A program made the position numbers and the translations under genes. Positions 14,152 through 33,982 of a DNA stretch of 64,000 bases are shown here, one piece after another. The stretch is taken from assembly GCF_000241465.1 (NCBI RefSeq), contig NZ_JH584235.1, forward strand, positions 2,842,529 through 2,906,528, given 5' to 3'. Origin of the DNA: Sphingomonas echinoides ATCC 14820. Lineage in GTDB: Bacteria > Pseudomonadota > Alphaproteobacteria > Sphingomonadales > Sphingomonadaceae. Within the stretch, counting starts at the first letter, position 1. The number at the start of each line of letters is the position of its first letter. The notes beneath the pieces were generated by a model. The model had not been told where the DNA came from. It did no database searches and saw only the letters and a program-made list of their open reading frames with translations.

Positions 14152-14238
14152 GCCCGGATGGCGGAATTGGTAGACGCACCAGCTTCAGGTGCTGGCGCTC
14201 GCAAGGGCGTGGAGGTTCGAGTCCTCTTCCGGGCACCA
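14152..14238 (+). tRNA. tRNA-Leu (CAG)
   Basis: An 87-nt class II tRNA. The acceptor stem pairs GCCCGGA (14152-14158) with TCCGGGC (14228-14234), followed by A and an encoded CCA. The D arm has GGCGGAATTGGTAGACGC. The anticodon stem CCAGC/GCTGG holds the loop TTCAGGT, so the anticodon is CAG. A long variable arm (CGCTCGCAAGGGCG) and a T arm with GGTTCGAGTCC follow. All features are typical of leucine tRNA reading CUG. Confidence 0.97.
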
Positions 14239-17868: not shown

Positions 17869-18249
17869 TCAGGACGGAATGAGGTGGGAGGGCCAGCCGA
17901 TGCGAATCAGCATCCCGTCAGGCCCGGAAATGCCGACTTCGTACAAGCCCCACGGGCGGTGACGGAGAATGCCGCCAGGGCGAATGATCAGGTCGTCAAC
18001 GCGCGCCGCGATCTCATCGACATCGGGTGTGCGAACGAAGACGCCGAATGGGTTGTGCTCGGCGGGGACTTGCCAGGGTCCGGGCCCAGCCTGCGTTAAA
18101 TGGACCTCGCAATGCCACCCCGTCATGATCGCATATTGGGCATCCCCGCCGGTCCGTGCGAAGCCAAGTCGTTCCCAGAAGGGGATGGCGGCGGACAGAT
18201 CGTTATGGGGGACGATTGCGAACGCCCCGATCGTCTCAGGAATTGGCAT
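17869..18249 (-). CDS. VOC (glyoxalase/bleomycin-resistance) superfamily protein
   Basis: A 126-aa single-module VOC protein. Visible features: AIVPHNDLSAAIPFWERLGFARTG at 9-32 (first beta-alpha unit), EVHLTQAG in the middle, and RPWGLYEVGISGPDGMLIRIGWPS near the end, which carries the C-terminal metal-ligand strand. The start at 18249 is favoured over 18276 because GGAG sits 5 nt upstream. Members bind metals and act on diverse small molecules or bind antibiotics. It faces the dipeptidase remnant and lies 3' of the catabolic cluster. Confidence 0.8.
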   Translation of the reverse strand: MPIPETIGAFAIVPHNDLSAAIPFWERLGFARTGGDAQYAIMTGWHCEVHLTQAGPGPWQVPAEHNPFGVFVRTPDVDEIAARVDDLIIRPGGILRHRPWGLYEVGISGPDGMLIRIGWPSHLIPS

Positions 18250-18380
18250 CGCGCGCTCCGTGCAATTCTCGCCCATCTTTTATCGCCACGGACGTTGCGC
18301 CGCTATCGATATGTGAGGGCAGCACCACTCGAGGACTTGTTTCCAGAGGTTCAACCCGTGCCTTGCGCGTGCCGGATGGG

Positions 18381-18719
18381 TTAAAAGCGTGCGCCGTCGA
18401 TCAAACGGCGTGGCAGAGCAGACCATAGCGCCGGATCGAACATCCTCAGGTTGACGCCCATGCGCTGATAGGCGGGGTCCGTTGGAGTCCAGTGCGTCGT
18501 GCAGCCACATGTCGGGCAATGCCATAGATCGAGCGCGCGATCGCCCTGCTGATACGCAGCGCCTTCACCTGCCACCGTGACGGCATCGGGAGCGCAATAG
18601 TGCCAAAGCCCGGCGGTGCGCCGACATATGGAGCAGTTGCACTCGGCGACCTCGAGCGGTGTATCGCGAAGCAGGAGTTGAACCTGCCCGCAATGGCAGC
18701 TTCCGCGATGTTCGTTCAC
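18381..18719 (-). CDS. GFA family (glutathione-dependent formaldehyde-activating-like) zinc protein
   Basis: A 112-aa Mss4-like zinc-binding protein. The cysteine motifs are in the right order: GSCHCGQVQ (near 7), ECNCSICRRT (near 26) and CPTCGCTTHW (near 68). The family includes glutathione-dependent formaldehyde-activating enzyme and many proteins without known function. A GTG start at 18719 with GGGAGGAGG upstream fits better than the ATG at 18839, which adds 40 unrelated residues. Confidence 0.82.
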   Translation of the reverse strand: MNEHRGSCHCGQVQLLLRDTPLEVAECNCSICRRTAGLWHYCAPDAVTVAGEGAAYQQGDRALDLWHCPTCGCTTHWTPTDPAYQRMGVNLRMFDPALWSALPRRLIDGARF

Positions 18720-18898
18720 TCTCGCGTCCTCCTCCCGGCTCGATGCCTTGTTGCATGCGAAACAAGCGATCGCAAAGGAGCGATTGCCACCGGTCGACCT
18801 GAGACCGCGTCGCCTTTTCGGCCGCGATTGGAGGAGCATCGTTGTGAGAGGTATTTCGCGCGCGTGGCGACCTTGCGCGGGAAAACGATGCGGGGTCT

Positions 18899-19894
18899 TC
18901 AGTCAGCGACGACAACGATTTTTCTCAGGGTGTCCCGCTTGCCAAGGGCGGCCAGTGCCTGGGGCGCTTGGCCAAGTGTGTATTCTTGCAACGGCCGTGG
19001 CCGCAGTCGCCCGTCGACGGCCTGGACGAACAGCGCGTTCCAGATCCGCATGGCGCGATCGGGATCGCTTTCGAAAAGGTATCGCGCATCGACGCCGATC
19101 AGCGCGGCGTTTTTGAGCAATGGGAGGTTCGCGGGAAGGCTCGGGATCGTCCCGGCGGCAAACCCCAAGACGAGATGACGGCCCCCCTTGGCGAGTGATC
19201 GAAACGCGGGTTCGAGGCTTGCCCCGCCGACCGGATCAACCACGACATCGACTCCCCCGCCGAGGATGCGTCGCAGGTCGTCTCGCCAATCGGCCGCGCG
19301 ATAATCGATCGCAGCTTCTGCCCCCAGTTCCAGGGCATAGTCCCGCTTGGCTGGCGTAGCGGCCGCGGCGATCACGCGCGCGCCGCTGTTCGCGGCCAAT
19401 TGCACCGCAGCGCTGCCGATCCCGCCACCGGCCCCCAAAACGAGCACGCTCTCGCCCGCGCGCAGGCCGCCGCGATCGAACAGCGCATACCATCCGGTAA
19501 GGTGATCGAGCAGCATGGACGCCGCCGCTGCCGAGGCAAGGGCGTCGGGGACCCGGATCAGCGATCGCGCGGGCGCGAGCGCGAATTCGGCCAATCCGCC
19601 GCCCGCGATGAGTTGCCAACTCGCCACGCGCGCGCCGATCTCAACCCCGAACGTGTTGGCACCAACCCGGTCGACCACGCCGACGATCTCGGCCCCCGGC
19701 ACATAAGGCGGCGTCGGCTTGTGCTGATATCCCCCCGCCGCCATCAGCGAATCGACATAGCCGAGCGCGACGGCCTCGATGCGCAGCCGCACCTCCCCCT
19801 CGGCCGGTTCGGGCACGGCGACACGCCGAAGCGCATATCCTTCGACTGGGCCCAACGCGTCGCTGGTCAACGCGATCATCGTCGCCGCGCCCAT
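18899..19894 (-). CDS. MDR-family NAD(P)H:quinone-type oxidoreductase (zinc-free alcohol dehydrogenase-like)
   Basis: A 331-aa medium-chain reductase. It has the GroES-like domain (ALGYVDSLMAAGGYQHKPTPPYVPGAEIVGVV) and Rossmann motif LVLGAGGGIGSAAVQLA (near 150); no structural-zinc cysteine cluster is present, so it is of the quinone reductase/enoyl reductase type. The start at 19894 lies 5 nt after the P450 stop; the ATG at 19957 would overlap the P450 and adds an unlikely tail. It is the third gene of the monooxygenase-P450-MDR run, so it probably reduces an unsaturated or ketonic intermediate of that pathway. Confidence 0.85.
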   Translation of the reverse strand: MGAATMIALTSDALGPVEGYALRRVAVPEPAEGEVRLRIEAVALGYVDSLMAAGGYQHKPTPPYVPGAEIVGVVDRVGANTFGVEIGARVASWQLIAGGGLAEFALAPARSLIRVPDALASAAAASMLLDHLTGWYALFDRGGLRAGESVLVLGAGGGIGSAAVQLAANSGARVIAAAATPAKRDYALELGAEAAIDYRAADWRDDLRRILGGGVDVVVDPVGGASLEPAFRSLAKGGRHLVLGFAAGTIPSLPANLPLLKNAALIGVDARYLFESDPDRAMRIWNALFVQAVDGRLRPRPLQEYTLGQAPQALAALGKRDTLRKIVVVAD

Positions 19895-19899
19895 CGGCG

Positions 19900-21135
19900 C
19901 TAGCCCCAGTGCGCTTCGAGCCGGGTCAACCCGCGGAACAGGAAGTTCGCCCGCCACGCCGCCCCGTGCAGATCGACCCTCATAGCCGGAAGTGTACGCG
20001 CGAGATGTTCGAACGCGATGCGCCCCTCGATCCGCGCCAGCTCGGCACCGACGCAGAAATGGATGCCGCCGCCGAACGACATATGGTCGGCTGCACCGCG
20101 CGCGACGTCGAAGCGATCGGGGTCGGCGAATTTGCGACCGTCGCGGTTTGCAGCGCCGACCAGGGTGAGCACGCGCTCGCCCGCCTTCACCGGATGCTCG
20201 GCGATCGTCGTGTCGCTCAGCGCGGTGCGATAGGCTGCGACCAGCGAACTTTCGTAGCGCAGCACTTCTTCGTTGGCCGACGCGGCGAGTCCGGTCGGAT
20301 CAGCCACGAGGCGATCCCATTGGTCGCGGTGCCGGTGCAGCCGGTAGAGGCCGTTGCCGATGATATTGGCGGTCGTCTCAAAGCCTGCGCCGAACAGCGC
20401 GATGGCGACGGTGGTCGCCTCCTGCATCGTCAGCCCGTCGGGCGCGGCCCCGGTTTGTGCCAGCGACGTCAACAGATCGTCGCGCGGATGGGCCAGGCGG
20501 TTTTCGAACTCGGCGCGGAAGAAGCGTTCGAGCTGGTCGATCCGGCGATTGGCCGTGGTCAGTTCGGGCTCAGTCAATTTTCGCGCTTCGAAGACGACAA
20601 AGGCTTCGGGGATGGCGGCGATCAATGCGGCCATCTCCGGCGTCTCGTAATCGATCCCCATCAATTCGCAGATGACCATCACCGGCAATTTGTAGGCGAA
20701 TTGCGTGATCAGATCGGCATGGCCATCGGCGAGGAAGGCGTCGGTCAGCTCCTGGCAAATCTCGCGGATCCGCGGCTCGAGCGCGCGAACCCGTTTTGCG
20801 GTCAGCGAACCCGTGACGAGGCTGCGGATGCGCGTGTGCTGCGGCGGATCCTGCATGATGAAAACGTCGGACAGCCAGCGATAACCCGAATTGGCCATCA
20901 CGTCGAAATCGGGGCCGTAAAACAGCTTCAGATTTTCGACGAAATCGCCCGTGCCGAAGTCCTTCCGGTTCATCAGCACTTCGCGCACATGATCGTAGCG
21001 CGATACCACCCAATAGCCCGGTTTCGACCGATGAAACGGGTCGCTCTCGCGGATGCGCGCGAACATGGGATAGGGATCGGTGATCAGGTCGGGATGCGCC
21101 GGATCGAACGGCTCGAGCTGAGCGACTCCAGTCAT
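19900..21135 (-). CDS. Cytochrome P450
   Basis: A 411-aa soluble bacterial P450. It has the I-helix region ALFGAGFETTANIIGN (near 243; note the usual AG.[DE]T pattern is present as AGFETT), the ExxR motif EVLRYES, and the haem loop FGGGIHFCVGAELARIEG with Cys361. The N-terminus (PYPMFARIRESDPFHRS) is typical of catabolic CYPs. It is co-directional with the Baeyer-Villiger monooxygenase gene (48 nt gap) and the MDR gene. No ferredoxin or ferredoxin reductase gene is near, so it must borrow electrons from elsewhere. Confidence 0.94.
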   Translation of the reverse strand: MTGVAQLEPFDPAHPDLITDPYPMFARIRESDPFHRSKPGYWVVSRYDHVREVLMNRKDFGTGDFVENLKLFYGPDFDVMANSGYRWLSDVFIMQDPPQHTRIRSLVTGSLTAKRVRALEPRIREICQELTDAFLADGHADLITQFAYKLPVMVICELMGIDYETPEMAALIAAIPEAFVVFEARKLTEPELTTANRRIDQLERFFRAEFENRLAHPRDDLLTSLAQTGAAPDGLTMQEATTVAIALFGAGFETTANIIGNGLYRLHRHRDQWDRLVADPTGLAASANEEVLRYESSLVAAYRTALSDTTIAEHPVKAGERVLTLVGAANRDGRKFADPDRFDVARGAADHMSFGGGIHFCVGAELARIEGRIAFEHLARTLPAMRVDLHGAAWRANFLFRGLTRLEAHWG

Positions 21136-21183
21136 GGCAAATTCTCTCCCTTGCCCCAGCCTGTGACTGTGGGTCGATTGTAG

Positions 21184-23097
21184 CTAGGCGTGTTCGAAGG
21201 TCAGATCGTCGGGGTTGGCTTCGCGCGTCATTCGCCAGAAGGCGTCGTTGCGCCACGGCGTGATCGCGATGATCCGACCACGCGCGTTGCGGTACCAATT
21301 TTCGGCACCCGGGTGCGTCCACACCAATTTCTCATGCGCCGCGTCGAGCTTCGCGACATAGGCGCGGTACACGTCCTCGCGGACCTCCACCGCAGACGCG
21401 TCGCGCGCAATCATCGCATCGATGATGCGCAGCGCATAATGCGCTTGATTCTCGATATTGCGGATCATGCTCCCGCCATGTCCGGCACCGACATTGGGGC
21501 CGAGCAGGATGAAGAAATTGGGAAATCCGGGCACCAGCGTGCCGAGATAGGCGGCGGCATTGTCGCCATCCCAGACGTCGCGCAAGACACGCCCGTCGCG
21601 CCCGATGACGTCGTAGGATCCGAGCACGTTGGTGGTCTGGAACCCCGTTGCCAGGATCAGAACGTCGGCTTGCACCTCTTCGCCAGACGCGGCGACGAGG
21701 GTGCTGCCACGAACTTCCGCCAAATGTTCGGGGATCAGCCGCACATGCGGTTTGCGCAGCGCGCGGAACCACCCATTGTCGAGCAGCATGCGTTTGAGGA
21801 ACGGCGGGTAATCGGGCAGCAGCAACGGCAGCAGGTCCTGCCGGTCGCCGAGTTGCTCTTCATAATAGGTCGTGAAGAATTGCCGGTGCCCATCGTTGAT
21901 CTTGTTGATCGACCGCTTCGAGTCCGCCCAGTCGGGATCGCGGAACAAGGTGCCATGGACTCGATCGTTGAAAGTCCACGACAGCCGTTGCTCGACCCAG
22001 TGGCGATAGAGCGGGAAGGTGCGCATCAAATAGCGAACGCCGTCGGGGACGACCTTGCGAAACTGCGGGAAGGGCGCGATCCATTGTTTCGATCGCGCGA
22101 AAATCGTCATCTCCGCCACATCGTCGGCGATCGCGGGCACCACTTGCATGCCCGACGCGCCATTGCCGATCACCGCGACGCGTTTGCCGACAAGGTCGAC
22201 CTCGTCGCGCCAGGCGGAGGTATGCAGCACCTCGCCGGTAAACGTGTCCAGCCCGGGGATTTGCGGGATCTTGGGGATATTGAGCAGCCCGACCGCGCTC
22301 ATCACGATATCGGCGCGATGCGTTTCGCGCTTGCCGTCCGGGTCGGTGACGGTGACCGCCCACTTGGCGTCCTCGGCGATCCACTCCGCGCGGTCGACCT
22401 TGGTGCCGAAACGCGCTTTGTCATAGAGACCGAAAGCGCGCGCGGTTTCCAGCAGATAGCGCTCGATCTCACCCTGCAGCGGAAAATGATGCGACCAGTC
22501 GGTCGGCCGACACGAAAAGGTGTAGGTGAGATTGGGCGTATCGACGCCACAGCCGGGATAGTGATTTTCCCACCACGTCCCGCCGAAATCCGCGTTCTTT
22601 TCAAAAAGCGTATAGTCGATGCCGGCCCGCTGCAGCTCGATTCCCGCGCAGATCCCCGAAATGCCCCCGCCGATCACGATCGCCGTGAGCGGGCGCTTGG
22701 ACGGGGTTGGGGCGGCTGGCTGTTCGAACTGCATCGAGAAGGCGACGACATCGCCATAGTCCTCCGGCACCGGTTCGCTCATCGCGACGCTCAGCATGGC
22801 GGCCAATTGGGCATTGCTCGGGCGCGGCAGGTTCAGCGGTGCGCCTTCGGCCCAGGCAAGGATCGCGTCATAGGCCGCATCGCGGATCGTACGCTGAACC
22901 TCGTCGCTCAGCCCACCCGTATCGTTGTCGTCCAACCCGCGACCGCGCCGTGGTGCGAACGGCGCCTCCAGCCACGCTTGATCCCCGGTCAGCTGGACCA
23001 GGCACAGCAGCAGCGCGGGAATGTTGGCTTGGTCGACGCCTTGGCGCAGCAACCCGCGATCGAGGGACACGCCTTGGAGTTGGTCGCTGGCTTGCAT
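21184..23097 (-). CDS. Baeyer-Villiger flavin monooxygenase, 4-hydroxyacetophenone-monooxygenase-like
   Basis: A 637-aa type I Baeyer-Villiger monooxygenase. It converts a ketone to an ester or lactone with FAD, NADPH and O2. The FAD Rossmann motif is IGGGISGICAGIELQRAG (near 143), followed by FEKNADFGGTWWENHYPG, and the BVMO fingerprint is FTGEVLHTSAWRD (FxGxxxHxxxW). A second GxGxxG is VIGNGASGMQVV. The 130-residue N-terminal extension and total length match 4-hydroxyacetophenone monooxygenases rather than the shorter cyclohexanone type. The start is ATG 23097 or an in-frame TTG at 23106; neither has ideal spacing. The 18-bp element at 23160 lies upstream. Confidence 0.88.
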   Translation of the reverse strand: MQASDQLQGVSLDRGLLRQGVDQANIPALLLCLVQLTGDQAWLEAPFAPRRGRGLDDNDTGGLSDEVQRTIRDAAYDAILAWAEGAPLNLPRPSNAQLAAMLSVAMSEPVPEDYGDVVAFSMQFEQPAAPTPSKRPLTAIVIGGGISGICAGIELQRAGIDYTLFEKNADFGGTWWENHYPGCGVDTPNLTYTFSCRPTDWSHHFPLQGEIERYLLETARAFGLYDKARFGTKVDRAEWIAEDAKWAVTVTDPDGKRETHRADIVMSAVGLLNIPKIPQIPGLDTFTGEVLHTSAWRDEVDLVGKRVAVIGNGASGMQVVPAIADDVAEMTIFARSKQWIAPFPQFRKVVPDGVRYLMRTFPLYRHWVEQRLSWTFNDRVHGTLFRDPDWADSKRSINKINDGHRQFFTTYYEEQLGDRQDLLPLLLPDYPPFLKRMLLDNGWFRALRKPHVRLIPEHLAEVRGSTLVAASGEEVQADVLILATGFQTTNVLGSYDVIGRDGRVLRDVWDGDNAAAYLGTLVPGFPNFFILLGPNVGAGHGGSMIRNIENQAHYALRIIDAMIARDASAVEVREDVYRAYVAKLDAAHEKLVWTHPGAENWYRNARGRIIAITPWRNDAFWRMTREANPDDLTFEHA

Positions 23098-23159
23098 TGC
23101 CGTCAAGTGCCTCTCGATGATGGTGCGTCACGCGCCCACATTACTGATGATATGCAATA

Positions 23160-23177
23160 TCTACTCACTGGTATATC
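23160..23177 (-). promoter_or_regulatory. Putative TetR operator, BVMO promoter
   Basis: TCTACTCACTGGTATATC, 62 bp before the BVMO ATG. It agrees at all 12 shared positions with the elements at 26796 and 30634 (TACT.AC..GTATAT), and keeps the same orientation relative to its gene. It is the least symmetrical of the three. Confidence 0.6.
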
Positions 23178-23243
23178 GAGTCAACGCATTAGGCCGCTGT
23201 CATTAGGTCGAACGAGAAACATCGGGGCGGTAAGGTCACGCCG

Positions 23244-24878
23244 TCAGGCGGAAAACACCTCGCGCCGCACGCGCATTCCGGCCTTCTCGCGATCCCAGGT
23301 GTCGTGCGTGATCCCCTCCTGGCGCAGATCGACCTTGAGCACCTTGGCCGACGGCGTCTTGGGCAATTCGTCCATGATTCGGATATAGCGCGGTACCATG
23401 AAGTACGGCATTTGGCGGATCAGGAAGGCGGCGAGATCTTCATGCGTGATGGTGCGCCCCGGCACCGGTGCCACGACCACCATCACCTCGTCCTCCGAAT
23501 ATTCGCTCGGCACGGCGATTGCTGCTGCCTCGCGCACGTCGGGGTGCGCGCAAACCTCCACTTCGACTTCGAACGACGAAATGTTCTCGCCGCGCCGCCG
23601 GATCGCGTCCTTCACCCGGTCGACAAAATAGAAATAGCCATCCGCGTCGCGCCGGAAGGCGTCGCCGGTATGGAACCAGCCATTGGCCCACGCCGCGGCG
23701 GTTGCTTCGGGGTTGCGATTATAGCCGCTGTTCATCGCCCAGGGACGGTCCGTCCGCACCAGCATTTCGCCGATCGCGCCGACGGGCACTTCGCAGTCGT
23801 TGTGGTCCACCAGCCGCACCTCGACGTTCGGCCTGACCTTGCCGCACGTACCGCGCTTGACCGGGTTGGCTTCGGATACCACGGGCGACGAGATCTCGGT
23901 CATGTTGAAGATCGTGTAGATGTCGACGCCAAACCGCTCGGTGAAGGCTGCGGCGTCATCGGTCAGCGGCACCATGAAGGCGGCGCGCACGCAGTGATCG
24001 CGATCTTCGGGTGCGGGCGGGCGCTTCATCAGGAATGTCGCCATCACGCCCAGCAGGAAAACGACCGTCGCCTGCGTCGTGCGGGCAATGTCCCAAAAGC
24101 GGTCGGTCGAGAAGGATTCGATCAGCGCGACCGATGCCCCGCGCGCCAGCATGACGAAAGGCGGGCCCATGCCGCCGATGTGAAAGATCGGCGCGACGCA
24201 CATATAGCGATCGTCTTCCCCCACCATCGGCCAGGACTCCGGTCCGGCGTTGGAAAACATGTGCAGATAGGACGACAGCACCCCTTTGGACGGGCCCGTC
24301 GTCCCGGAGGTGTAAATGATCGACTGGATATCCCATGGCTCGATCGGACGGTCCAGCGGATCAAGCGTTTCCCCGCCGACCTCGTCGAAGCGCACCGCCG
24401 GCAGACCGATATCGGGTGCTGGCGCATCCGAGACGATCACGAGCTGGGCAAGCTCGGCGCGATCGATTTCGGCCAGGCGCTCGACCAGATCGGGGTGCAC
24501 GATCATCACGATCGCGCCCGAATTGCGCACCACATGACCCAGCATCTTGCCGCGATAGGCCGTGTTGAACGGCACGAAGACCGCGCCGATATAATTGATC
24601 GCGTAAAAGGCGATCAGCGCATCGCGCCCGCTCGGCAGCCATGCCGCAACGTGGTCCCCCTGACGGATGCCCAGCCGCTGCAGACCTGCCGCTTTGGAGA
24701 CCACGCGACGACGGAGCTCGGCATAGCTCCACTCCTCGCCATCTTCGAAAATAACATGGGTCTTGTCGGGGCGCTCGTCGGCCCAGCGGTCGACCAGATA
24801 GCGCAGGACGCATTCGTTGCGATTGGGGATTCGCGGATCGGCAAAGTCGCGGCTTCCGCTCGCCACAGTCATAGTCAT
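23244..24878 (-). CDS. AMP-binding acyl-CoA ligase
   Basis: A 544-aa ANL-superfamily enzyme that activates a carboxylic acid with ATP and CoA. It has the P-loop IIYTSGTTGPSKGVL (near 178), NMTEISSP (A5-like), GWFHTGDAFRRDADGYFYFVDR (A7/A8) and the C-terminal catalytic lysine region KTPSAKVLKVDLR. The layout is closest to CaiC/medium-chain or cyclic-acid CoA ligases. The start at 24878 is followed by an alternative ATG at 24872; the frame upstream overlaps the TetR gene and is not used. It is 38 nt downstream of tetR, in the same transcription unit, fitting acid activation after a BVMO step. Confidence 0.9.
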   Translation of the reverse strand: MTMTVASGSRDFADPRIPNRNECVLRYLVDRWADERPDKTHVIFEDGEEWSYAELRRRVVSKAAGLQRLGIRQGDHVAAWLPSGRDALIAFYAINYIGAVFVPFNTAYRGKMLGHVVRNSGAIVMIVHPDLVERLAEIDRAELAQLVIVSDAPAPDIGLPAVRFDEVGGETLDPLDRPIEPWDIQSIIYTSGTTGPSKGVLSSYLHMFSNAGPESWPMVGEDDRYMCVAPIFHIGGMGPPFVMLARGASVALIESFSTDRFWDIARTTQATVVFLLGVMATFLMKRPPAPEDRDHCVRAAFMVPLTDDAAAFTERFGVDIYTIFNMTEISSPVVSEANPVKRGTCGKVRPNVEVRLVDHNDCEVPVGAIGEMLVRTDRPWAMNSGYNRNPEATAAAWANGWFHTGDAFRRDADGYFYFVDRVKDAIRRRGENISSFEVEVEVCAHPDVREAAAIAVPSEYSEDEVMVVVAPVPGRTITHEDLAAFLIRQMPYFMVPRYIRIMDELPKTPSAKVLKVDLRQEGITHDTWDREKAGMRVRREVFSA

Positions 24879-24916
24879 AACACCTTCACCTCGAAAATGT
24901 TGAGCGAGGGCAGTCG

Positions 24917-25561
24917 TCAATCCACGGCGATAAGGCGCAGACAGGCCGCGACCGCCTGATCGACCACCATTTCCGCCGACCGTTTGCTGCCCGGCCGATA
25001 GCAATGGATGATCCAGCTCAGCAGGCCGCCGATCCAGATCGACATGCCGGCCGCATTGGCGACGGTGACCGCGCCATCCTGGACACAATCATCGATCAAC
25101 TTCCCGATGCGCAGATCGAATTCGTGCCGTAGGCGCAAAATGCGCTGCGCGTCGGCGCGATCGAGGTTCATCATCTCGCGTTGATAGATCACGAGATATT
25201 CGTGTCGTGCGACGATGATTTCCGCGACTTCGCGTAACGACGCCTTGAGTTTGTCGATCGGCCGCCGCTCGATTTCCTCGATCCGGTCGAGCGCCGCGAG
25301 CGATTCCTTGACGCCCGCTTCGCAGATCGCGCTCAGGATCGCGCTCTTACCCTTGAAATAGGTGTACAGAAACGGCTTGGTGGCGCTCAGACGGTCGGCG
25401 AGCATTTCGAGCGTCGCCGATTCATACCCCTTCTCGTAAAACAGCGCGCTCGCTTCCGCGAGAATGCGCGCGCGCTTATAGGCGACAACGCCCGGCTTGA
25501 TTTCCCGCAAGCTCGATTCGTAACCGGCCGGGTTTTTCGCGGCGGCGCTGGATTTGGTCAT
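24917..25561 (-). CDS. TetR family transcriptional regulator
   Basis: A 214-aa regulator. The N-terminal helix-turn-helix is at about 28-75 (ILAEASALFYEKGYESATLEMLADRLSATKPFLYTYFKGK), followed by a variable, all-helical ligand domain. The start overlaps the stop of the iron-containing ADH gene (ATGA at 25558-25561), so it is made together with the enzymes it probably controls, giving autoregulation through the operator at 26796. It is the only transcription factor in the 18-30 kb cluster. Confidence 0.9.
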   Translation of the reverse strand: MTKSSAAAKNPAGYESSLREIKPGVVAYKRARILAEASALFYEKGYESATLEMLADRLSATKPFLYTYFKGKSAILSAICEAGVKESLAALDRIEEIERRPIDKLKASLREVAEIIVARHEYLVIYQREMMNLDRADAQRILRLRHEFDLRIGKLIDDCVQDGAVTVANAAGMSIWIGGLLSWIIHCYRPGSKRSAEMVVDQAVAACLRLIAVD

Positions 25562-26736
25562 GCGGCCCTTCTGAGAATTTCCATGATATCCGACGGCGAC
25601 GTCACGGGGCGCGGATTGGTCCGTCCCCATATATCAAGCATGGTATATTCCGCCACCTGCTGGAAGCGGTCTGCGGTGACGCCCACTTCGCCCAACGTCC
25701 GCGGCATTCCGAGCGATCGGATCAGCGCATCGAGGCTCGCTGCCGCCGTCGGGTGCGTAGCGCCCAGACAGGCATTGATGCGATGCTGCCGACTGTCGTC
25801 ATATTCGGCATTCCAGTCGAGGACATAGGGCGACATCACACAGGAGCAATGGCCGTGCGGGACGCCGCAGGTGCCACCAAGGATATGCCCGATCGCATGG
25901 CTGGCCCCCATCGGGACCCCGCCGATGATCGAGATCATCGATTGCCAGGCACCGATCTGGCATTTGAGGCGGGCTTCCAGGTCCGTGGGATCGGCCTTGG
26001 CGCGCGTCAGCCCCTCGACGAGCAGGCGGAGCGCATTGTCCGCCAAGCCGTTGGCGAAGTCGTTCGACTTGTCGGAGGCGAGCGTTTCCACCGCATGATC
26101 GACCGACCGGACGCCGGTCGACAGCCACAGCCATTCGGGCGTGTGCAGCGTGATGGCGGGATCGAGCACCACCATGACCGGGGCCATGTTGCGATGCTCA
26201 TAGCCCTGCTTGTGCGCCGTGACCTCGTCGGTCGAGCCCGACAGGGCGTTGAACTCTCCGCCGGACAAGGTGGTGGGGACGCAAATCGTCCGAATGTCGG
26301 GTCCGATCTTTATCGGATTGATCACAGTGCCGTCGCCATCGACGAAGGTGCGCAGCGGCTCGAAATCCTCGACCGTCCGCACGTCGTGCTTGAGCAACAA
26401 CGGCACGATCTTGCCCGCGTCGATGACCGAGCCACCCCCGATGCCGACGATCAGGTCCGCTCCGGCGGCGCGTGCGGCCTCGGCTGCGGCGAGAACGTCC
26501 GCGCGCGGCGCGTGCGAGGCGATCCCGCTATGCGTGGCGGCGTGACGATCGCCCAACGCGATCTCAATCTGTGCGATTTCGTCGGTATTGCGCCGCAGAC
26601 TGTCGGAGGTCAGCAGGAACACCTTGCGTGCGCCCATCGCCTCGGCTTGCGCGCGTAGGGCGTCGCGCGCGGGCTGCCCCATCGTAACGCGCTCGGTCGT
26701 CGTAAAAGTCATCTGGGTCGGAATGACGCTCGTCAC
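25558..26736 (-). CDS. Iron-containing alcohol dehydrogenase / maleylacetate reductase family
   Basis: A 392-aa group III dehydrogenase. The NAD-binding motif is GIGGGSVIDAGKIVPL (near 98) and the metal-site region is VDHAVETLAS (near 205) plus ASHAIGHILGGTCGVPHGHCSCVM (near 270-295), which supplies the metal-binding histidines. The segment HCSCVMSPYVLDWN is reminiscent of maleylacetate reductases, but family-level assignment is as far as I can go. The GTG start at 26736 has GAGAGAGGA upstream. In this cluster it would oxidise an alcohol made by the P450 to the ketone used by the BVMO. Confidence 0.88.
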   Translation of the reverse strand: MTSVIPTQMTFTTTERVTMGQPARDALRAQAEAMGARKVFLLTSDSLRRNTDEIAQIEIALGDRHAATHSGIASHAPRADVLAAAEAARAAGADLIVGIGGGSVIDAGKIVPLLLKHDVRTVEDFEPLRTFVDGDGTVINPIKIGPDIRTICVPTTLSGGEFNALSGSTDEVTAHKQGYEHRNMAPVMVVLDPAITLHTPEWLWLSTGVRSVDHAVETLASDKSNDFANGLADNALRLLVEGLTRAKADPTDLEARLKCQIGAWQSMISIIGGVPMGASHAIGHILGGTCGVPHGHCSCVMSPYVLDWNAEYDDSRQHRINACLGATHPTAAASLDALIRSLGMPRTLGEVGVTADRFQQVAEYTMLDIWGRTNPRPVTSPSDIMEILRRAA

Positions 26737-27023
26737 GGCCTTATCCTCTCTCGCATATCTTTGCGCTTGTGATGAGCAGTATGCACGCCACTGGTGATAC
26801 TGACTAGTATATTTTCATACCATTATTCAAAAATCACCGGGTGGCGGCTTGACCCTCTCTCTACCCCTCGGTAGCCGGTAGGCACATTGCCGGGCGCATC
26901 GCCGGTCGCCACCACGAAGACAGAGATAGCCTGGATGGATCAACGATTAGTCTCTCTTGATCCCGCGCGCCGCGCGAAAAGAGCCGTCGGGCACCGCTGC
27001 GCACCGTCTGCGGCGGTCGTTCA
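26737..27023. promoter_or_regulatory. Divergent promoter region (ADH-tetR-ligase / racemase-like gene)
   Basis: 287 bp, with an AT-rich core at 26780-26830 that stands out from its surroundings. It contains the best-conserved copy of the putative operator and a nearby half-like CACTGGTGATAC. A single site here could control both directions. Confidence 0.6.
26796..26813 (-). promoter_or_regulatory. Putative TetR operator, ADH-tetR promoter
   Basis: GATACTGACTAGTATATT. The arms ATACT/AGTAT are a perfect 5-bp inverted repeat around GACT, and 15 of 18 bases match the element before the TonB receptor. It lies 59 bp upstream of the GTG start of the dehydrogenase. Confidence 0.68.
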
Positions 27024-28154
27024 ATGAGCGGCCCTCTCTCTGGTATCCGCGTGGTCGAATTTGCCGGGCTGGGCCCGACCCCGTTCGGGGCGATGGTGCT
27101 TGCCGATCTGGGCGCGGAGGTGGTGCGCATCGACCGCCGCCGAACCGAGACGTTTGGGGGCGGGGACGATCGCGCCGATTTCCTCAACCGGGGCCGACCC
27201 TCGGTCGTGGTGGACCTGAAGTCCGATCCCGGTCGCGCGCTGGCGCTCGAATTGGCCAGTCGGGCCGATGTTTTGATCGAAGGGTTTCGGCCGGGCGTCA
27301 TGGAACGTCTGATGCTGGGGCCGGATCCGCTGCTCGCGGCAAATCCCCGTCTCATCTACGCCCGCATGACCGGATGGGGCCAGACGGGCCCGATGACGCA
27401 CAAAGCCGGGCACGATATCAACTACCTGTCGATGACGGGTGCGCTCGACCTGATTGGGCCGTTCGACGGGCCACCGGTGCCGCCGATCAATTATGTCGCC
27501 AATTTCGGCGGCGGCGGCATGCTTTTGGTCGTGGGCGTGCTCAGCGCTTTGCTCGAACGATCCGTCAGCGGACGCGGGCAGATCGTCGATGCCGCGATGG
27601 TTGATGGTGCATCGTTGCTGGCGACGCAAATCTTCGCGTGGACCGCAATGGGGCGATGGCATCCCGGGCGCGGGGGCAATTTGCTGGACGGGAGCGCCTA
27701 TTTCTATCGGTGCTACCGAGCCGCCGACGACAAGTTTGTCGCGGTCGGGGCGCTTGAGCCGCAATTTCATGCAGAGCTGATCCGCGGTCTCGGGCTCGAT
27801 CCTGCCGACTTTGGCGGTCACCTCGATCCGTCCTGTTGGGCCACGCGCGCCGCGCAGTTGGAAGCGATCTTCGCCACGCGCACGCGCGATGGATGGATCG
27901 AGCATTTCGCGCCGTTCGATGCGTGCCTCAGTCCCGTGCTCAGCCCGCAGGAGGCGACGGAGCACCCGGCAAACGTGACGCGCGGCGTGCATGTCGCGGT
28001 GTCTGGCGTGCTGCAGCCGGCACCCGCACCGCGTTTCGATCGTACCCCGCCAACCCTTCCGACGGCACCGGTTGAGCCTGGCGAGGGCGGCGAGGATCGG
28101 TTGCGCGCATGGGGCATCGACCCTGCCCACTTCGCCCCAGAGACTGGACGATAG
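27024..28154 (+). CDS. Alpha-methylacyl-CoA racemase-like CaiB/BaiF family protein
   Basis: A 376-aa family III CoA-transferase-fold protein. The N-terminus (MSGPLSGIRVVEFAGLGPTP) and KAGHDINYLSMTG closely follow bacterial alpha-methylacyl-CoA racemases, which epimerise 2-methyl-branched acyl-CoAs before beta-oxidation. His130 matches the catalytic His, and LEPQFHAELI keeps the Glu region. The catalytic Asp expected in the (A/G)DFGGG segment is Asn160 here (YVANFGGGGM, codon AAT at 27501), so racemase activity is doubtful. It is divergent from the dehydrogenase gene and probably serves the same pathway. It could also be a CoA-transferase. Confidence 0.82.
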   Translation: MSGPLSGIRVVEFAGLGPTPFGAMVLADLGAEVVRIDRRRTETFGGGDDRADFLNRGRPSVVVDLKSDPGRALALELASRADVLIEGFRPGVMERLMLGPDPLLAANPRLIYARMTGWGQTGPMTHKAGHDINYLSMTGALDLIGPFDGPPVPPINYVANFGGGGMLLVVGVLSALLERSVSGRGQIVDAAMVDGASLLATQIFAWTAMGRWHPGRGGNLLDGSAYFYRCYRAADDKFVAVGALEPQFHAELIRGLGLDPADFGGHLDPSCWATRAAQLEAIFATRTRDGWIEHFAPFDACLSPVLSPQEATEHPANVTRGVHVAVSGVLQPAPAPRFDRTPPTLPTAPVEPGEGGEDRLRAWGIDPAHFAPETGR

Positions 28155-28303
28155 GACCGGCCAAGCGCCCTTCGCTTCGCACATCACCACCGGCCGAAGC
28201 GCGCTCCCCCGTCATCCGACGGGATCAGCAGCGCGTGGCGATGCCGCGGCGTCGCCACGCGCCGGTCTACCCCGACCGCACCAGCGCTGCCATCAGGCAG
28301 GCT

Positions 28304-30586
28304 TCAGAAATTGATGCCAAGCGTAGCGCCGTACGTCCTTGGCGGCATCAACGAGCCGACCCGCGGGAATTGATAGGTGGCCGCCGCAATGATGTTGTTT
28401 GCGATCACGAACTCATCACCGATGTTCTTGACCCATACGCCGAGTGACCAGCGATCCTTGGCGGCGTGATAGGTCAGACCGGCATTGGCCATCGCATATG
28501 CGCCCTGTTCGGCGTCGCGATTGTTGAACTCGGTGAAGTAGACCTTGGACTGCCACTTCGCGTCGCCGTTCAGCGTGATCTTTCCACTGCCGACCGGCAC
28601 ATCCCAGTTGAAACCACCGCCGAACGACGTTCGCGGCGCATTGGGAAGACTGTTGCCGCTCAAATCGACCAGGCCCGGCTGGTTGGGGCATGGCGCATAA
28701 GAGATGCCTGCGCGCGCCGGAAAGGCGGCACCGTAATAGGCGTTGCAGAACTTCGTGAACTTGGCATTCAGATACGACGCATTGGCATTGATCGAGAGGC
28801 CGCCGACGATCCGCGCTTCCAGCTCGAGTTCGCCGCCATAGTTGCGCGCGGTCGCTGCGTTGATCGTTTGGACGATGCTGTTCGCGTTGACGAAGCTAAC
28901 CTGCAAGTTTTTGTAATCATAATAGAAAATCGCGCCGCTCAGGAGTACGCGATTGTTGGCGAAGCGCTGCTTGAACCCGCCTTCATAGCTCCATACCGTT
29001 TCAGGATCGATCGCCGGGTCTGTGCTCCCGACATTGATCACGCCCGATTTGAAACCCTTGGTGACGCTGGCGTACAGCATCGTCGTCGTGGTGGGATGAT
29101 ATTCGATCAGCGCCTTGGGCGTAACCGACGACCATCCTTTCGCGACGTTGGTTGGAATGTTCAGCCCAATCGCATCGAACCGAAAATAGCCATCGCCGCT
29201 GCGATGCTCGTAATTGTAGCGACCGCCGAGCGTGACCTTCACCGCCGGGCTGAGCTCATAACTGGCCTGCAGATAGACGCCGACGGCGTCGATCTTGACG
29301 ACGCCCTTTTGCTCATAGGCACCATTGTCGAACGTGCTCGCCGGCAGCCCGAACAGCAAGGCCAAGTTCGTCGTCGGCACGAGCACCTGGCCCGACAGCT
29401 TCTCGTGCAGATACATCGCGCCGCCCAGCAGCGATAAGCCGCCACGCTGGTAATTGACCGTGACTTCCTGGCTGAACGATCTGCTTTTTTCGACGTAATT
29501 GTTCTGGCCGGCCAAATTGACTTGTGACGAATCCAGATCGTCGCGCTGAAAACGGTCGAAGCTGCGATAGGCGGTGATCGTTTTGATCGTGGCCGCGCCC
29601 AGATTGAAGTCGAGCGTTCCGGTCGCGCCATAGCCTTTGCGACGATTGATCGCTTCCTGATCGGAATAGATATTGCGCAGGTTGGGGGTTTGGCCGATCG
29701 ACGCATAATAGCCGATCACCGTTTTGCCGCCGAGCAGCGTATGCGGCAGCTGGTTTTCCGGAACGACCGACGGCCCGAAATAGTGAAACGCGTAATTGTG
29801 GTCGTCCTCGTTGAAATGATCGAGGACCAGCGTTGCGCGCACCGACGGATTGAAGTTGGCGATGATCGTGCCGCGCAGCGCGTATGCGTCGCGATCGTCG
29901 ACGTCGCCGCCTGTAAACAAATTCTTGCCGTAGCCGTCGCGTTTTTCATATTTGCCGGCGATCCGCGCCAGCAGGCGGTCGTCCCCGGACACGCTGCCAC
30001 CAACCGCGCCCTCAATGATCTTGGCGTTATAGTCCCCGTAGGTCGCGCGGATAAAGCCTTGCAGCTCCTCCTTCGGGCGCGCGGTGACGAGATTGATCGC
30101 GCCTGCGGTTGCGCCGCGTCCGTAGAGGATCGACTGCGGCCCGCGCAGCACTTCGATCTGCTCGAGATCGAAGAAACCGCTCAGCTGCTGCGCCGGGCGG
30201 GGCAGAATGGCACCGTTCTGCAAGAAGGCGACCGCGCCTTCGCCACCGACATCGAAATTGTTCAGCCCGACGCCGCGGATGAACGTCCGGTTGACGCCGA
30301 ACTGATCGCCGATCGACACGTTGGGGACGACAACCTGAAGGTCACCGATATTGGAGACCCCGCCCGGCCCGAGATCGGCACCGGTGATTGCGCTGACTGC
30401 CCCGGGGACTCGGCTTAGCGAGGTGTTTTGGCGCGTTGCCGTGACGATGATATCCTGGATCCCGTCCTGATCGGCGGAGGCGGGCGGGGAGGGAGGCGTA
30501 ACGGGTGCCGTTTGCGCATGGGCAAGGGCGGGCACCATCAGCATGGCCAAAGGCGCGTAACGCGCCAGCAAAAAGCGTCGCAGCAT
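28304..30586 (-). CDS. TonB-dependent outer-membrane receptor (catabolic cluster)
   Basis: A 760-aa receptor. It has a signal peptide (first 25 residues, ending ALAHAQ), a TonB box-like DIIVTATRQ near 45, plug-domain segments (FIRGVGLNNFDVGGEGAVAF, EVLRGPQSILYGRGATAGAINLVTARP) and a 22-strand barrel ending in a terminal aromatic residue (YGATLGINF). It imports a bulky or scarce substrate across the outer membrane with energy from TonB. The start at 30586 was chosen for the signal peptide and the AGGGGAG upstream. The operator-like element 48 bp before it ties it to the oxygenase cluster. Confidence 0.93.
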   Translation of the reverse strand: MLRRFLLARYAPLAMLMVPALAHAQTAPVTPPSPPASADQDGIQDIIVTATRQNTSLSRVPGAVSAITGADLGPGGVSNIGDLQVVVPNVSIGDQFGVNRTFIRGVGLNNFDVGGEGAVAFLQNGAILPRPAQQLSGFFDLEQIEVLRGPQSILYGRGATAGAINLVTARPKEELQGFIRATYGDYNAKIIEGAVGGSVSGDDRLLARIAGKYEKRDGYGKNLFTGGDVDDRDAYALRGTIIANFNPSVRATLVLDHFNEDDHNYAFHYFGPSVVPENQLPHTLLGGKTVIGYYASIGQTPNLRNIYSDQEAINRRKGYGATGTLDFNLGAATIKTITAYRSFDRFQRDDLDSSQVNLAGQNNYVEKSRSFSQEVTVNYQRGGLSLLGGAMYLHEKLSGQVLVPTTNLALLFGLPASTFDNGAYEQKGVVKIDAVGVYLQASYELSPAVKVTLGGRYNYEHRSGDGYFRFDAIGLNIPTNVAKGWSSVTPKALIEYHPTTTTMLYASVTKGFKSGVINVGSTDPAIDPETVWSYEGGFKQRFANNRVLLSGAIFYYDYKNLQVSFVNANSIVQTINAATARNYGGELELEARIVGGLSINANASYLNAKFTKFCNAYYGAAFPARAGISYAPCPNQPGLVDLSGNSLPNAPRTSFGGGFNWDVPVGSGKITLNGDAKWQSKVYFTEFNNRDAEQGAYAMANAGLTYHAAKDRWSLGVWVKNIGDEFVIANNIIAAATYQFPRVGSLMPPRTYGATLGINF

Positions 30587-30633
30587 CCGAACTCCCCTAT
30601 TTTTCGGCCACGCTTGATCACGCGGCATCTTTT

Positions 30634-30651
30634 GATACTGACGGGTATATC
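30634..30651 (-). promoter_or_regulatory. Putative TetR operator, TonB receptor promoter
   Basis: GATACTGACGGGTATATC, 47 bp before the receptor start. ATAC/GTAT form perfect 4-bp arms around 6 nt. It shares 15 of 18 bases with the element at 26796. Confidence 0.62.
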
Positions 30652-30877
30652 TTTCTTTACATCGGTATTCAAGCGGATGTTGCGCTCGGTTTTTGGTGTC
30701 CCGGCAGCCTCTCGCAGCGTCGCCGCACCGCGTCATCCCGACGGACGGTCGCGAGCATAAGGTCGGAGGGAGGGCGACGGCGCTACGGCAGCAATGGTCG
30801 TGGTGGTGGCAGAGCCGCCGGGCCAGAGACGGGCCGTGCCGCGCTATTTAGCGCATCTCAGGCCGGTGTGGCGCGGT

Positions 30878-31252
30878 TCATTCGAGCGGGCCGAAGATGT
30901 CCGCCAGGCAATCGACCAGGGTGTCCGGGCTATACGGCTTCTGCAAAAAACAATGCGCACCGTTGTTCAGCGCGCGGGTGAGCAGGTCGTCGGTCGGATA
31001 AGCGGTCATCAAGATCAGCGGCACCGCAATGCCGCGCGTGCGAAGCGCGTCCTGAAACTCCAGGCCTGACATTTCGGGCATGTTGATGTCGGAGATGATG
31101 CAGCCGAACTGGTCAGGGTAGGCCGCGAGGCATTCGGGCGCAGAGGGAAATTGCGCGGCCTCCAGGCCGAGCGAACGGATCAGGCTAGCTGTCGCCGAGC
31201 GTACGAGGTCGTCATCCTCGACAATCGCCACCGTCCGCTGCTGCAAGGTCAT
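30878..31252 (-). CDS. Single-domain response regulator (receiver only)
   Basis: A 124-aa FixJ-type receiver with no output domain. The acidic pocket is EDDD (residues 12-15), the phospho-acceptor is Asp55 in CIISDINMPEMSGLE, then MTAYP (Thr/Ser switch) and KPYSPDTL. Such proteins act as phosphate sinks or pass phosphate to another partner. It follows the two-domain regulator gene after 80 nt on the same strand and may share its kinase. Confidence 0.9.
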   Translation of the reverse strand: MTLQQRTVAIVEDDDLVRSATASLIRSLGLEAAQFPSAPECLAAYPDQFGCIISDINMPEMSGLEFQDALRTRGIAVPLILMTAYPTDDLLTRALNNGAHCFLQKPYSPDTLVDCLADIFGPLE

Positions 31253-31332
31253 CGAAATTCCTGGTCATGGCCGACTTTGGCGACCGCTTCCCTGCTAGAG
31301 CGTTCGCGGGGCGCGCAAAACCATACACAAGT

Positions 31333-31992
31333 TTAGGATGGGACGCCGCGCCGCCCGATCGCCTCGGAAAGCCGTACCAGATCGGCGACCGTGCGCACGC
31401 CCATTTTGCGCATCATACTGCCGCGGTGCAGCTTCACGGTGATTTCGCTGAGGCCAAGGTCGGCGGCGATCTGCTTGTTCATCAGCCCGGCCACGACGCG
31501 TTCCATCACTTCGCGTTCGCGAGGTGTCAGCGAGGCCTGGCGCTGTGCGGCCGCGGCGATCGCATCTTCGTCCTCCAGCCGCTTTCGGTCGCGGTCGAGC
31601 GCGGTTTCGACGGCATCGATAATATCCTGGTCGCGAAACGGCTTTGCGAGAAAGTCGATCGCGCCCGCCTTCATGGCGCGCACGCTCATCGGAATGTCGC
31701 CATGCCCGGTGATGAAAACGATCGGCGCGCGGTCACCACGTTCCATCAGTTTCGCCTGGATTTCCAACCCGTTCATGCGCGGCAGGCGGACATCCATCAC
31801 CAGGCAGCTGGGCCCTTTTGGCAACGCGTGTTCGAACAGCGTCTGCGCTGAATCGAAGGTGAGCGTTCGCAGGCCGATCGAGCGAAACAGCGAATCCATC
31901 GCAGAGCGTACCAGTGCGTCATCATCGACGATGATGACCGTCGGTTCGCCGTGATGATCGCTGCCGTCTGTCTCCTGCGTCCGTCGTGTCAC
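31333..31992 (-). CDS. FixJ/NarL-type response regulator with LuxR HTH
   Basis: A 219-aa regulator. The receiver (about 17-130) has DDD at 23-25, phospho-Asp67 in LVMDVRLPRMNGLE, FITGHGDIPMSVRAMKAGAIDFLAKPF. The C-terminal LuxR-type HTH (about 150-210) reads [43 protein letters not shown]. It lies 78 nt after the DHp-only gene and precedes the receiver-only gene, a probable three-gene signalling unit without a complete kinase. Confidence 0.92.
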   Translation of the reverse strand: MTRRTQETDGSDHHGEPTVIIVDDDALVRSAMDSLFRSIGLRTLTFDSAQTLFEHALPKGPSCLVMDVRLPRMNGLEIQAKLMERGDRAPIVFITGHGDIPMSVRAMKAGAIDFLAKPFRDQDIIDAVETALDRDRKRLEDEDAIAAAAQRQASLTPREREVMERVVAGLMNKQIAADLGLSEITVKLHRGSMMRKMGVRTVADLVRLSEAIGRRGVPS

Positions 31993-32070
31993 CCGATCTC
32001 CCTTCCTTCCCGTCTCCCGACCATCGCCGCGATCGGGGTTTTGCGCTTTACCGCGTCTTGCCGGGCTGTC

Positions 32071-32313
32071 CTATGGCTGGGGCAGGTTTCGCAAGGTGCG
32101 GACCATGGCGGCGGCGTGTTCGGCGCATTTCTGGATATCGCGCAGGCTGCTCTCCACTTCCGCAAGATCGGGGTGATCGCGCTTGAGCCAGCGCAGCGCG
32201 GCACCGGCATTGGAGAGGATACTGGAAAGCGGCTGGTTGATCTCGTGTATGATCGAAGCGGCCTGGATTTCTCCTTTGCCGCCTTCGGTGCCGTTGGCAT
32301 CGCTTGGTGTCAT
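32071..32313 (-). CDS. DHp-only (HisKA) histidine kinase fragment protein
   Basis: An 80-aa protein that contains only the dimerisation/phospho-acceptor domain of a histidine kinase: IIHEINQPLSSILSNAGAA then LRWLKRDHPD and a second helix ending MVRTLRNL. The H-box His is intact (residue 24). There is no ATPase domain, and the frame stops (TAG) right after helix 2, 78 nt before the FixJ-type regulator. It resembles the DHp of the 1410-aa kinase at 41736 (HEIGQPLAAIVSHAGASIRWLKR). It is either a phosphotransfer protein or the remnant of a deleted kinase. Confidence 0.65.
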   Translation of the reverse strand: MTPSDANGTEGGKGEIQAASIIHEINQPLSSILSNAGAALRWLKRDHPDLAEVESSLRDIQKCAEHAAAMVRTLRNLPQP

Positions 32314-32838
32314 TCGATTTCACCAGTCCATTGCGGTTGGAGGGGAGCCGTGAAGCGGTAAGCGCGAAGAAAAATGCGTGGCCGCATACGACGTTACGAT
32401 ACCAGCGGCGGCGGACGATTATTGTCGAAATCGCACACAATAACCAAAGCTTGTCCCATATTGCGCCCAGCTTTGCTGAGCGGTGCGCGCGTGCCTGTTC
32501 GGATCGGTCGAATGTCCCCGTGGCGACGCAAAACGTCTTTTGCCGTCCCTGTAAGATCGCGCGCGCCGACATCGAAAAGCGCGGCGGTCCATATCAAGAC
32601 AGCATGACGTTCGCGGGGACGGATGCCCTTGCGCAGCGCGTTTGGCGCGGTTGGAAAATGCCGACCATGTTCCAAGCCCACCGAATATACGATTGTATGA
32701 TTACTGCGCCGAATACCGACCAATACACGGCGCTCATCCGAAACCTCAGGATGTGCCCCATGAATGCCATAGCAACCGGCCCGCTGTTGCGGCCCGTTAT
32801 GATAGCGCTGGTGTCCCCACGGACGGGAAGGGCGCGTG
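32314..32838. other. Non-coding divergent region, 525 bp
   Basis: Between the DHp-only gene (-) and the FAD monooxygenase gene (+). Long frames exist on both strands but have no family resemblance, no signal or domain pattern and no ribosome-binding site. AT-rich patches at 32400-32460 and 32680-32705 (ATACGATTGTATGATTAC) could hold promoters for the two directions. Confidence 0.5.
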
Positions 32839-33939: not shown

Positions 33940-33982
33940 TCGGCCACGCGCGCCGGGCTTAGAGGGACGGGTGTTGGGACGC

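Follow-up and report, generated by a model that had tools for sequence, protein, structure and literature searches.

A block of catabolic genes in Sphingomonas echinoides ATCC 14820 is a real, recurring and conserved module that carries its own operator motif. The block lies in a stretch of 64,000 nucleotides (assembly GCF_000241465.1, contig NZ_JH584235.1, positions 2,842,529 to 2,906,528; this whole stretch is referred to as the window) and encodes a TetR-family regulator, a cytochrome P450, a type I Baeyer-Villiger monooxygenase (BVMO), an oxidoreductase of the iron-dependent alcohol dehydrogenase (Fe-ADH) family, an acyl-coenzyme A (CoA) ligase, a protein of the alpha-methylacyl-CoA racemase family and a TonB-dependent receptor. 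All of these families had been named in a preliminary description of the sequence, and all were found in the block, confirming that observation. The description's view that the block forms a single oxidative catabolic module, linked to a TetR and equipped with a dedicated receptor, is supported by co-occurrence of the genes across genomes, correlated divergence of their proteins and a common operator; because these three lines of evidence agree, the block is more than a product of chance. With moderate confidence, we read it as one TetR-controlled module that would take up a hydrophobic ketone or ketone precursor, probably a cyclic one, and open it by oxidation. What began as a guess from one genome is now a defined gene module with a marker operator motif, for which the inducer could be sought with a simple reporter.

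Module genes co-occur and diverge together

We gathered relatives of the window BVMO (57–88% identity), together with their flanks, from genomes of the family and of the genus, from a plasmid collection and from named-species genomes, the last covered by a pattern scan that was not exhaustive, and scored the gene content of each locus by tblastn using identity thresholds that we set ourselves. Among the resulting 29 BVMO-bearing loci, window included, the CoA ligase recurred in 27, the Fe-ADH-family gene in 26, the TetR, racemase-like and receptor genes in 22 each and the P450 in 20, with an FMN-dependent alpha-hydroxyacid dehydrogenase in four. A quinone-reductase-like gene of the MDR family, which follows the P450 gene in the window, also belongs to the block, being present in 12 of the 29 loci. 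Since several locus stretches stop at contig edges (e.g., L051, L059, L061 and L065), these presence counts are lower bounds. The possibility that homologous clusters elsewhere hold the genes separately, raised in the preliminary description, was not borne out in Sphingomonadaceae, given this co-occurrence. The table of 29 leaves out distant BVMO relatives of 37–48% identity (L052–L058, L069, L070, L072–L074, L108 and L113), L116 (equal to L060 wherever compared), L110 (BVMO identical to that of L059, and of equal length), L117 (the same place as L107) and L084, which has no module gene.

Pairwise protein identities between loci tracked those of the BVMO, most closely for the racemase-like protein (r = 0.87, 17 loci), followed by a metallo-beta-lactamase (MBL)-fold hydrolase found in relatives (0.81, 15 loci), the receptor (0.76, 18), the Fe-ADH-family protein (0.71, 21), the ligase (0.69, 19), the P450 (0.62, 18) and TetR (0.48, 17); for each of these seven proteins, none of 500 label permutations reached the observed r. 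Gene order and orientation are shuffled between genomes, and presence is patchy, at 14 of 298 family genomes (at least 66% identity) and five of 201 genus genomes (at least 60%), with the window's genome in both counts. The same gene order as in the window, with the MBL-fold hydrolase included, stands on the annotated plasmid pABRDHK22 of Novosphingobium sp. EMRT-2 (L106). On this plasmid, one LysR gene separates the module from catechol ortho-cleavage genes (pcaD, catA, catC and a cycloisomerase; L106, 3363–6579).

Reduced versions were found in L068, L071 and L107, where a TRAP transporter and an EstB-like hydrolase are encoded divergently from the BVMO and CoA ligase; L068 and L071 also carry the Fe-ADH-family gene. 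In two Rhodobacterales loci and in Tistrella, the BVMO, ligase and esterase genes adjoin the TRAP transporter (by Pfam in L068, by the same families in L071 and by annotation in Tistrella), and tblastn found no P450, receptor or racemase in the stretches of these loci.

Several related arrangements were also observed. A second ligase-like gene (26–27% identity to the module ligase) adjoins the racemase-like gene in L041 (11749–13242) and L080 (9998–11533). L058 holds a more distant sibling set, with receptor-like, racemase-like (57%), BVMO (43%) and ligase (56%) genes in one direction and a TetR-like gene (36%) nearby. BVMOs about 45–46% identical to that of the window, as judged from the 30 matches listed, occur on rhizobial plasmids; the matches in the plasmid collection comprise 69 records, including 13 from Rhizobium, nine from Sinorhizobium and one from Mesorhizobium. 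On plasmid pRtrCIAT899b of Rhizobium tropici CIAT 899 (L113, 7001–8857), a distant BVMO lies near a P450–ferredoxin pair and hydrogenase genes.

A shared operator palindrome marks module promoters

Palindrome counting singled out one motif, TACTGNNCAGTA, at the promoters of module genes. We examined 102 regions upstream of module genes in 24 loci, and 48 of them contain it at up to one mismatch, whereas 40 simulated sets of similar dinucleotide composition gave 0.4 on average and never more than 4; because divergent gene pairs share one region, the 102 regions are not independent. At up to two mismatches, the operator stood upstream of 15 of 17 receptor genes, 17 of 22 Fe-ADH-family genes, 12 of 16 racemase-like genes, 12 of 20 BVMO genes, five of 11 tetR genes, three of five FMN dehydrogenase genes and two of four EstB genes. 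At the BVMO promoter, the sites counted in relatives are stronger than the one in the window (Table 1).

The sites are almost confined to the module. Across 35 loci and the window, 35 of the 36 sites at up to one mismatch are intergenic and flanked by a module gene; the remaining one falls in the Fe-ADH gene call of L049, yet outside the tblastn match of the Fe-ADH protein, so that this gene call probably starts too early. An 18-base form, allowed two mismatches, gave 21 distinct sites in 14 BVMO-bearing whole genomes, of which 20 belong to the module and the remaining one, in G289, lies outside it; its reversed-pattern control matched once per strand, in one genome; two of the 14 genomes, the window's own among them, had no site of this form. 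In the window's genome, a 14-base form occurred exactly only at the module and with one mismatch at two other places, against one match for the reversed control. A dispersed regulon was considered and rejected, as one of the 21 sites in the 14 genomes lies off the module. We also scanned eight stretches outside motif discovery at up to one mismatch: L114 and L115 have a site between divergent Fe-ADH-family and racemase-like genes, and L106, L107 and L080–L083 have none. In L106, a near relative of L063, a site with two mismatches precedes the BVMO gene.

This distribution suggests that the module is probably jointly controlled, and the place of the TetR gene within it points to its product as the putative protein that binds the motif. 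In L045, L047 and L050, an FMN-dependent alpha-hydroxyacid dehydrogenase gene and tetR are transcribed away from each other, and the interval separating the two holds an exact operator site, so that the dehydrogenase gene is a possible extra member of the regulon.

Conserved and altered active sites

We examined whether the residues expected of each family are retained. Type I BVMOs bear the fingerprint FxGxxxHxxxW and a second motif, [AG]GxW..[FY]P[GM]xxxD, and both were present in all 24 cluster members; the window protein reads FTGEVLHTSAW followed by Arg, not Pro or Asp. Cytochromes P450 are marked by the haem-ligand Cys motif, ExxR and the I-helix acid, each found in 18 of 18 members. AMP-forming acyl-CoA ligases have a P-loop, TSGTTGxxK, and a C-terminal catalytic Lys; the P-loop was intact in 19 of 19 proteins and the K.P.[AG]K motif in 18 of 19, window included. 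Zinc alcohol dehydrogenases carry a catalytic Cys and a GHE motif. The MDR protein of the window has no Cys at all and the GHE motif is missing from all 10 cluster members, which points to a reductase of quinones or enones and probably not to a zinc alcohol dehydrogenase.

The Fe-ADH-family protein departs from its family at the metal site. Iron-dependent group III alcohol dehydrogenases bind the metal through an Asp and three His (PMC5125639). Here, the Asp is replaced by Arg (Arg210) in 20 of 20 readable cluster members, whereas the His ligands are kept in 19 of 19, and the alcohol oxidation assigned to this protein in the preliminary description is undercut by this change. In alignments, the position is Asp in the AdhE-type structures 9ldl and 3zdr, Asn in 3jzd and 3w5s and Arg in 9ph0 ('MAR1'). 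According to passages of a review, maleylacetate reductases, of which 3jzd is one, are active without metal, perhaps because the metal Asp is Asn or Arg (PMC5125639). The replacement of this Asp by Asn or Arg that distinguishes maleylacetate reductases (cd08177) is thus seen in Arg210, and MAR1 was the top solved-structure match, with four of the best six being MAR1, 3jzd, 3w5s and 3hl0. Lys238, however, is reported as essential in the maleylacetate reductase PcpE (PMC5741723), and the Fe-ADH-family protein has Ala at the residue aligned with the Lys of the 3jzd HHK motif, which would be the equivalent of Lys238; we therefore do not assign it as a maleylacetate reductase. Its best NCBIfam model was 4-hydroxybutyrate dehydrogenase, far under the cut-off.

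The racemase-like protein resembles MCR, the alpha-methylacyl-CoA racemase of Mycobacterium tuberculosis, over nearly its full length (E 4.5e-110). The equivalent of His126 is His in 16 of 16 readable proteins and that of Glu241 is Glu in 16 of 17 and Asp in one, but the equivalent of Asp156, the second base of MCR, is Asn in the window (Asn160) and in 12 of 17 proteins overall, the other five having Asp. For MCR D156A, passages of PMC10967716 give partial activity in a colorimetric assay and quote less than 0.2% from an earlier assay; a D to N change was not met in those passages. The preliminary description had taken the racemase family to imply a 2-methyl acid, with a sterol side chain or isoprenoid as its conjectured source; with Asn at the Asp156 position of the window protein, racemase activity is putative and that implication is not supported. 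Together, these proteins provide a pair of naturally altered active sites, in which Asp has given way to Arg in the Fe-ADH fold and to Asn in the racemase fold, the latter with Asp-bearing relatives for comparison.

A hydrolase carried by relatives is absent from the window

The window has no hydrolase gene between the receptor and racemase-like genes. At this place, L060, L062, L063, L066, L080 and L106, which share the window's order around it, carry the gene for the MBL-fold, lactonase-like hydrolase; compared with L060, the flanks match at 84% and 79%, and the spacer is about 141 bases in the window versus about 907. By tblastn, the MBL-fold gene is present in 19 of the 29 loci and a gene for an EstB-like serine hydrolase in five, and no locus has both, a mutual exclusion that would follow if the two enzymes shared the product of the BVMO as their substrate. 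One step thus seems to be filled by either of two unrelated hydrolases, with a candidate in 24 of the 29 loci, the window not among them; the lactonase role is putative. Neither was found in the window, L059, L061, L065 and L067, but the stretches of L059, L061 and L065 are truncated where their contigs end. All 15 MBL-fold proteins examined contain the HxHxDH motif.

The statement in the preliminary description that the block has no esterase is accordingly true of the window but not of the module in its relatives, and its claim of every step type in one block fails at the ester or lactone hydrolase, absent here and supplied in those 24 loci. A replacement MBL hydrolase elsewhere in the window's genome was sought and rejected, the best relative being 33% identical over residues 60–277 of 299, and a search of that genome without positive control found no EstB relative at E <= 1e-10.

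Proposed pathway and alternative substrates

We infer the order of steps, each reaction and the substrate class as follows. The TonB receptor would take the compound up, the P450 would hydroxylate it, an alcohol dehydrogenase from elsewhere would give an enone or ketone, and the MDR reductase would saturate the enone. The BVMO would then insert oxygen to form a lactone or ester, to be opened by a lactonase or esterase (the MBL-fold or EstB-like enzyme in relatives; in the window's genome, either an enzyme unrelated to these or none at all). The Fe-ADH-family enzyme, probably metal-free and maleylacetate-reductase-like, would reduce or oxidise the oxo or hydroxy acid released in this way, the ligase would form its CoA ester, and the racemase-family protein would handle an alpha-branched or epimeric CoA ester ahead of ordinary beta-oxidation.

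The putative cyclic ketone is perhaps a terpenoid, its ring opened as in the carvone/dihydrocarvone route. The carveol/carvone/dihydrocarvone pathway of Rhodococcus erythropolis DCL14, as described in passages of PMC7794910, involves LimC, a BVMO and the lactone hydrolase MlhB, and shares with the proposed route hydroxylation, ketone formation, enone reduction, BVMO, a lactone hydrolase (a candidate in relatives here) and CoA-linked breakdown, a likeness of step logic rather than of compared sequences. Unlike that route, the module has a receptor, a TetR with its operator, a racemase-like protein and an Fe-ADH-family enzyme, and the hydrolase of its relatives is MBL-fold or EstB-like. BVMO-based ketone breakdown is already known; here it would come with its own operator. 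We tentatively entertain the further possibility that sphingomonads have an undescribed pathway for opening the ring of a cyclic terpenoid from the environment (geosmin-, ionone- or menthane-like). Its Fe-ADH-fold reductase, of Arg type and working without metal, and its racemase-family enzyme with a single base would then be new activities under a private TetR regulon. No description of the module was found in the titles and abstract openings of the open-access papers listed by literature searches.

A number of observations weigh against reading the module as a TetR-controlled route for opening a cyclic ketone. The motif was derived from upstream regions that also served for the first count of its enrichment, the operator at up to two mismatches is absent upstream of the MBL (0/5), ligase (0/1) and P450 (0/1) genes, and L106 has no site at up to one mismatch. 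Common descent of whole genomes would give some of the correlated divergence, and near-duplicates among the 29 loci (L039/L065, L063/L106 and L068/L071, with BVMOs 96–98% identical) weaken their independence. The two MBL-fold proteins scanned, from L060 and L063, had lactonases as their best NCBIfam models, far under the cut-off, and the top solved-structure matches of the L060 protein were organophosphorus hydrolases; its other matches included homoserine lactonases and a reconstructed dihydrocoumarin hydrolase. Where the hydrolase is a serine esterase, its substrate could be an acyclic ester, the TRAP-linked versions without P450, receptor or racemase are as compatible with import of a keto acid as with a hydrophobic ring, and the window copy, lacking a hydrolase, may be decaying. 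Finally, a P450 ferredoxin partner, a beta-oxidation gene and a zinc or short-chain alcohol dehydrogenase were not widely recurrent among the nameable shared families, in flanks that were scanned in part; a family read by eye as short-chain dehydrogenase is common to two loci, L039 and L065.

Of the alternatives, the one that survives best, though we consider it unlikely, is a methyl- or branched-chain isoprenoid ketone (e.g., phytone-like), which the BVMO would turn into an acetate ester and the hydrolase into a primary alcohol, to be oxidised, CoA-activated and epimerised by the racemase-like protein. A ligase paired with a racemase-family protein suits a 2-methyl-branched acid, the receptor suits a hydrophobic substrate, and EstB-like serine hydrolases replace the MBL enzyme in five loci. 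However, 19 loci have the MBL-fold enzyme with its lactonase-type, below-cut-off best models, the Fe-ADH-family enzyme is without the usual metal ligand, no aldehyde dehydrogenase is among the nameable shared families, and the catalytic Asp is Asn in most of the racemase-like proteins.

An aryl-ketone pathway like the hap route for 4-hydroxyacetophenone, with a HAPMO-like BVMO, an esterase, ring cleavage and a maleylacetate reductase, is doubtful. The likeness to the hap cluster lies in the BVMO, which with its N-terminal extension we take to be of HAPMO-like size, and in an Fe-ADH-fold enzyme near the maleylacetate reductases, as its structure matches indicate; the catechol ortho-cleavage genes close to the module in EMRT-2 also speak for such a route. 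Against it, no ring-cleavage dioxygenase was found in the window block or among the nameable shared families, and the ligase, P450, racemase-like protein and receptor set the module apart from the hap cluster; CoA ligase, P450 and racemase are not known to play a role in the hap route. The Ala at the position of the essential PcpE lysine and the 4-hydroxybutyrate dehydrogenase model, under its cut-off, also argue against it.

A sterol or steroid side-chain module, with P450, CoA ligase and racemase joined to a steroid BVMO, appears improbable. In its favour, oxidation of the cholesterol side chain likewise combines a P450, a ligase and a racemase. Another sphingomonad BVMO cluster, pdc of Caenibius tardaugens, acts on progesterone and likewise has a TetR-type regulator near its BVMO, but passages describing it give a 4.6 kb set of four genes, for a BVMO, an LLM protein and two regulators (PMC12239570), a set that differs from ours in gene content, which was compared in place of sequences. 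In addition, no thiolase or steroid-ring gene is among the nameable shared families; the window's genome was not searched for steroid-ring genes. A chance neighbourhood of unrelated catabolic genes, with which the shuffled order and patchy presence would agree, is scarcely credible, because the genes co-occur, their proteins diverge in step and the operator is hardly seen outside the module.

Organization of the gene block

From the receptor downwards, the genes of the module run receptor (−), racemase-like (+), and then Fe-ADH-family, TetR, CoA ligase, BVMO, P450 and MDR reductase (all −), so that the racemase-like gene points away from the Fe-ADH-family gene and towards the receptor gene (Table 1). 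Gene starts were refined with a codon-scored gene caller and inspection by eye; the TetR start, which we picked, fits the overlap annotated in Novosphingobium sp. EMRT-2.

Table 1 Features of the module in the window (window coordinates)
Feature	Position	Strand	Remarks
MDR-family NAD(P)H:quinone/enone reductase-like (PIG3-like)	18899..19894	−	best NCBIfam model TIGR02824, under its cut-off
Cytochrome P450	19900..21135	−	closest solved structures CYP107-type (PikC and others)
Type I BVMO	21184..23097	−	N-terminal extension of ~135 residues; both BVMO motifs
Possible degenerate operator, 3 mismatches	23162..23173		before BVMO gene; weak alone, with many such matches in the scanned stretch
AMP-forming acyl-CoA ligase	23244..24878	−	start set within longer open reading frame 23244–25088
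TetR-family regulator (TetR_C_24)	24917..25561	−	4-base overlap with preceding gene
Fe-ADH-family oxidoreductase	25558..26736	−	Arg210 in place of the metal-ligand Asp
Operator palindrome, 1 mismatch to TACTGNNCAGTA	26798..26809		in the interval separating the Fe-ADH-family gene from the racemase-like gene
Alpha-methylacyl-CoA-racemase-family protein (Pfam CoA-transferase family III)	27024..28154	+	Asn160 at catalytic Asp position
Hydrolase-less interval	28155..28303		relatives of same gene order have MBL-fold hydrolase gene here
TonB-dependent receptor	28304..30586	−	start picked by analyst inside open reading frame 28304–30736
Operator palindrome, 2 mismatches	30636..30647		~50 bases before receptor start

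The preliminary description had placed the block at 17869–30586. Its core genes stand, with the MDR gene inside the module, but a glyoxalase gene (17869–18276) and a GFA gene (18381–18839) were rejected as members; because each accompanies the module in one of the 29 loci, namely the window itself, we set the span at about 18899 to about 30650. A foreign-island reading was rejected as well, with GC even across the block (0.60–0.65) and the sole tRNA found in the window at 14152–14238; integrases were not searched. Near this tRNA-Leu lies a GH115 glycosidase gene (14744–17347), found with the module in one of the 29 loci. Beyond the receptor, three response-regulator genes (all −) are arranged at 30878–34651 around a FAD-binding monooxygenase-like gene (32839–33939, +); the product of 30878–31252 consists of a receiver domain only, and those of 31333–31992 and 33983–34651 have a LuxR-type domain.

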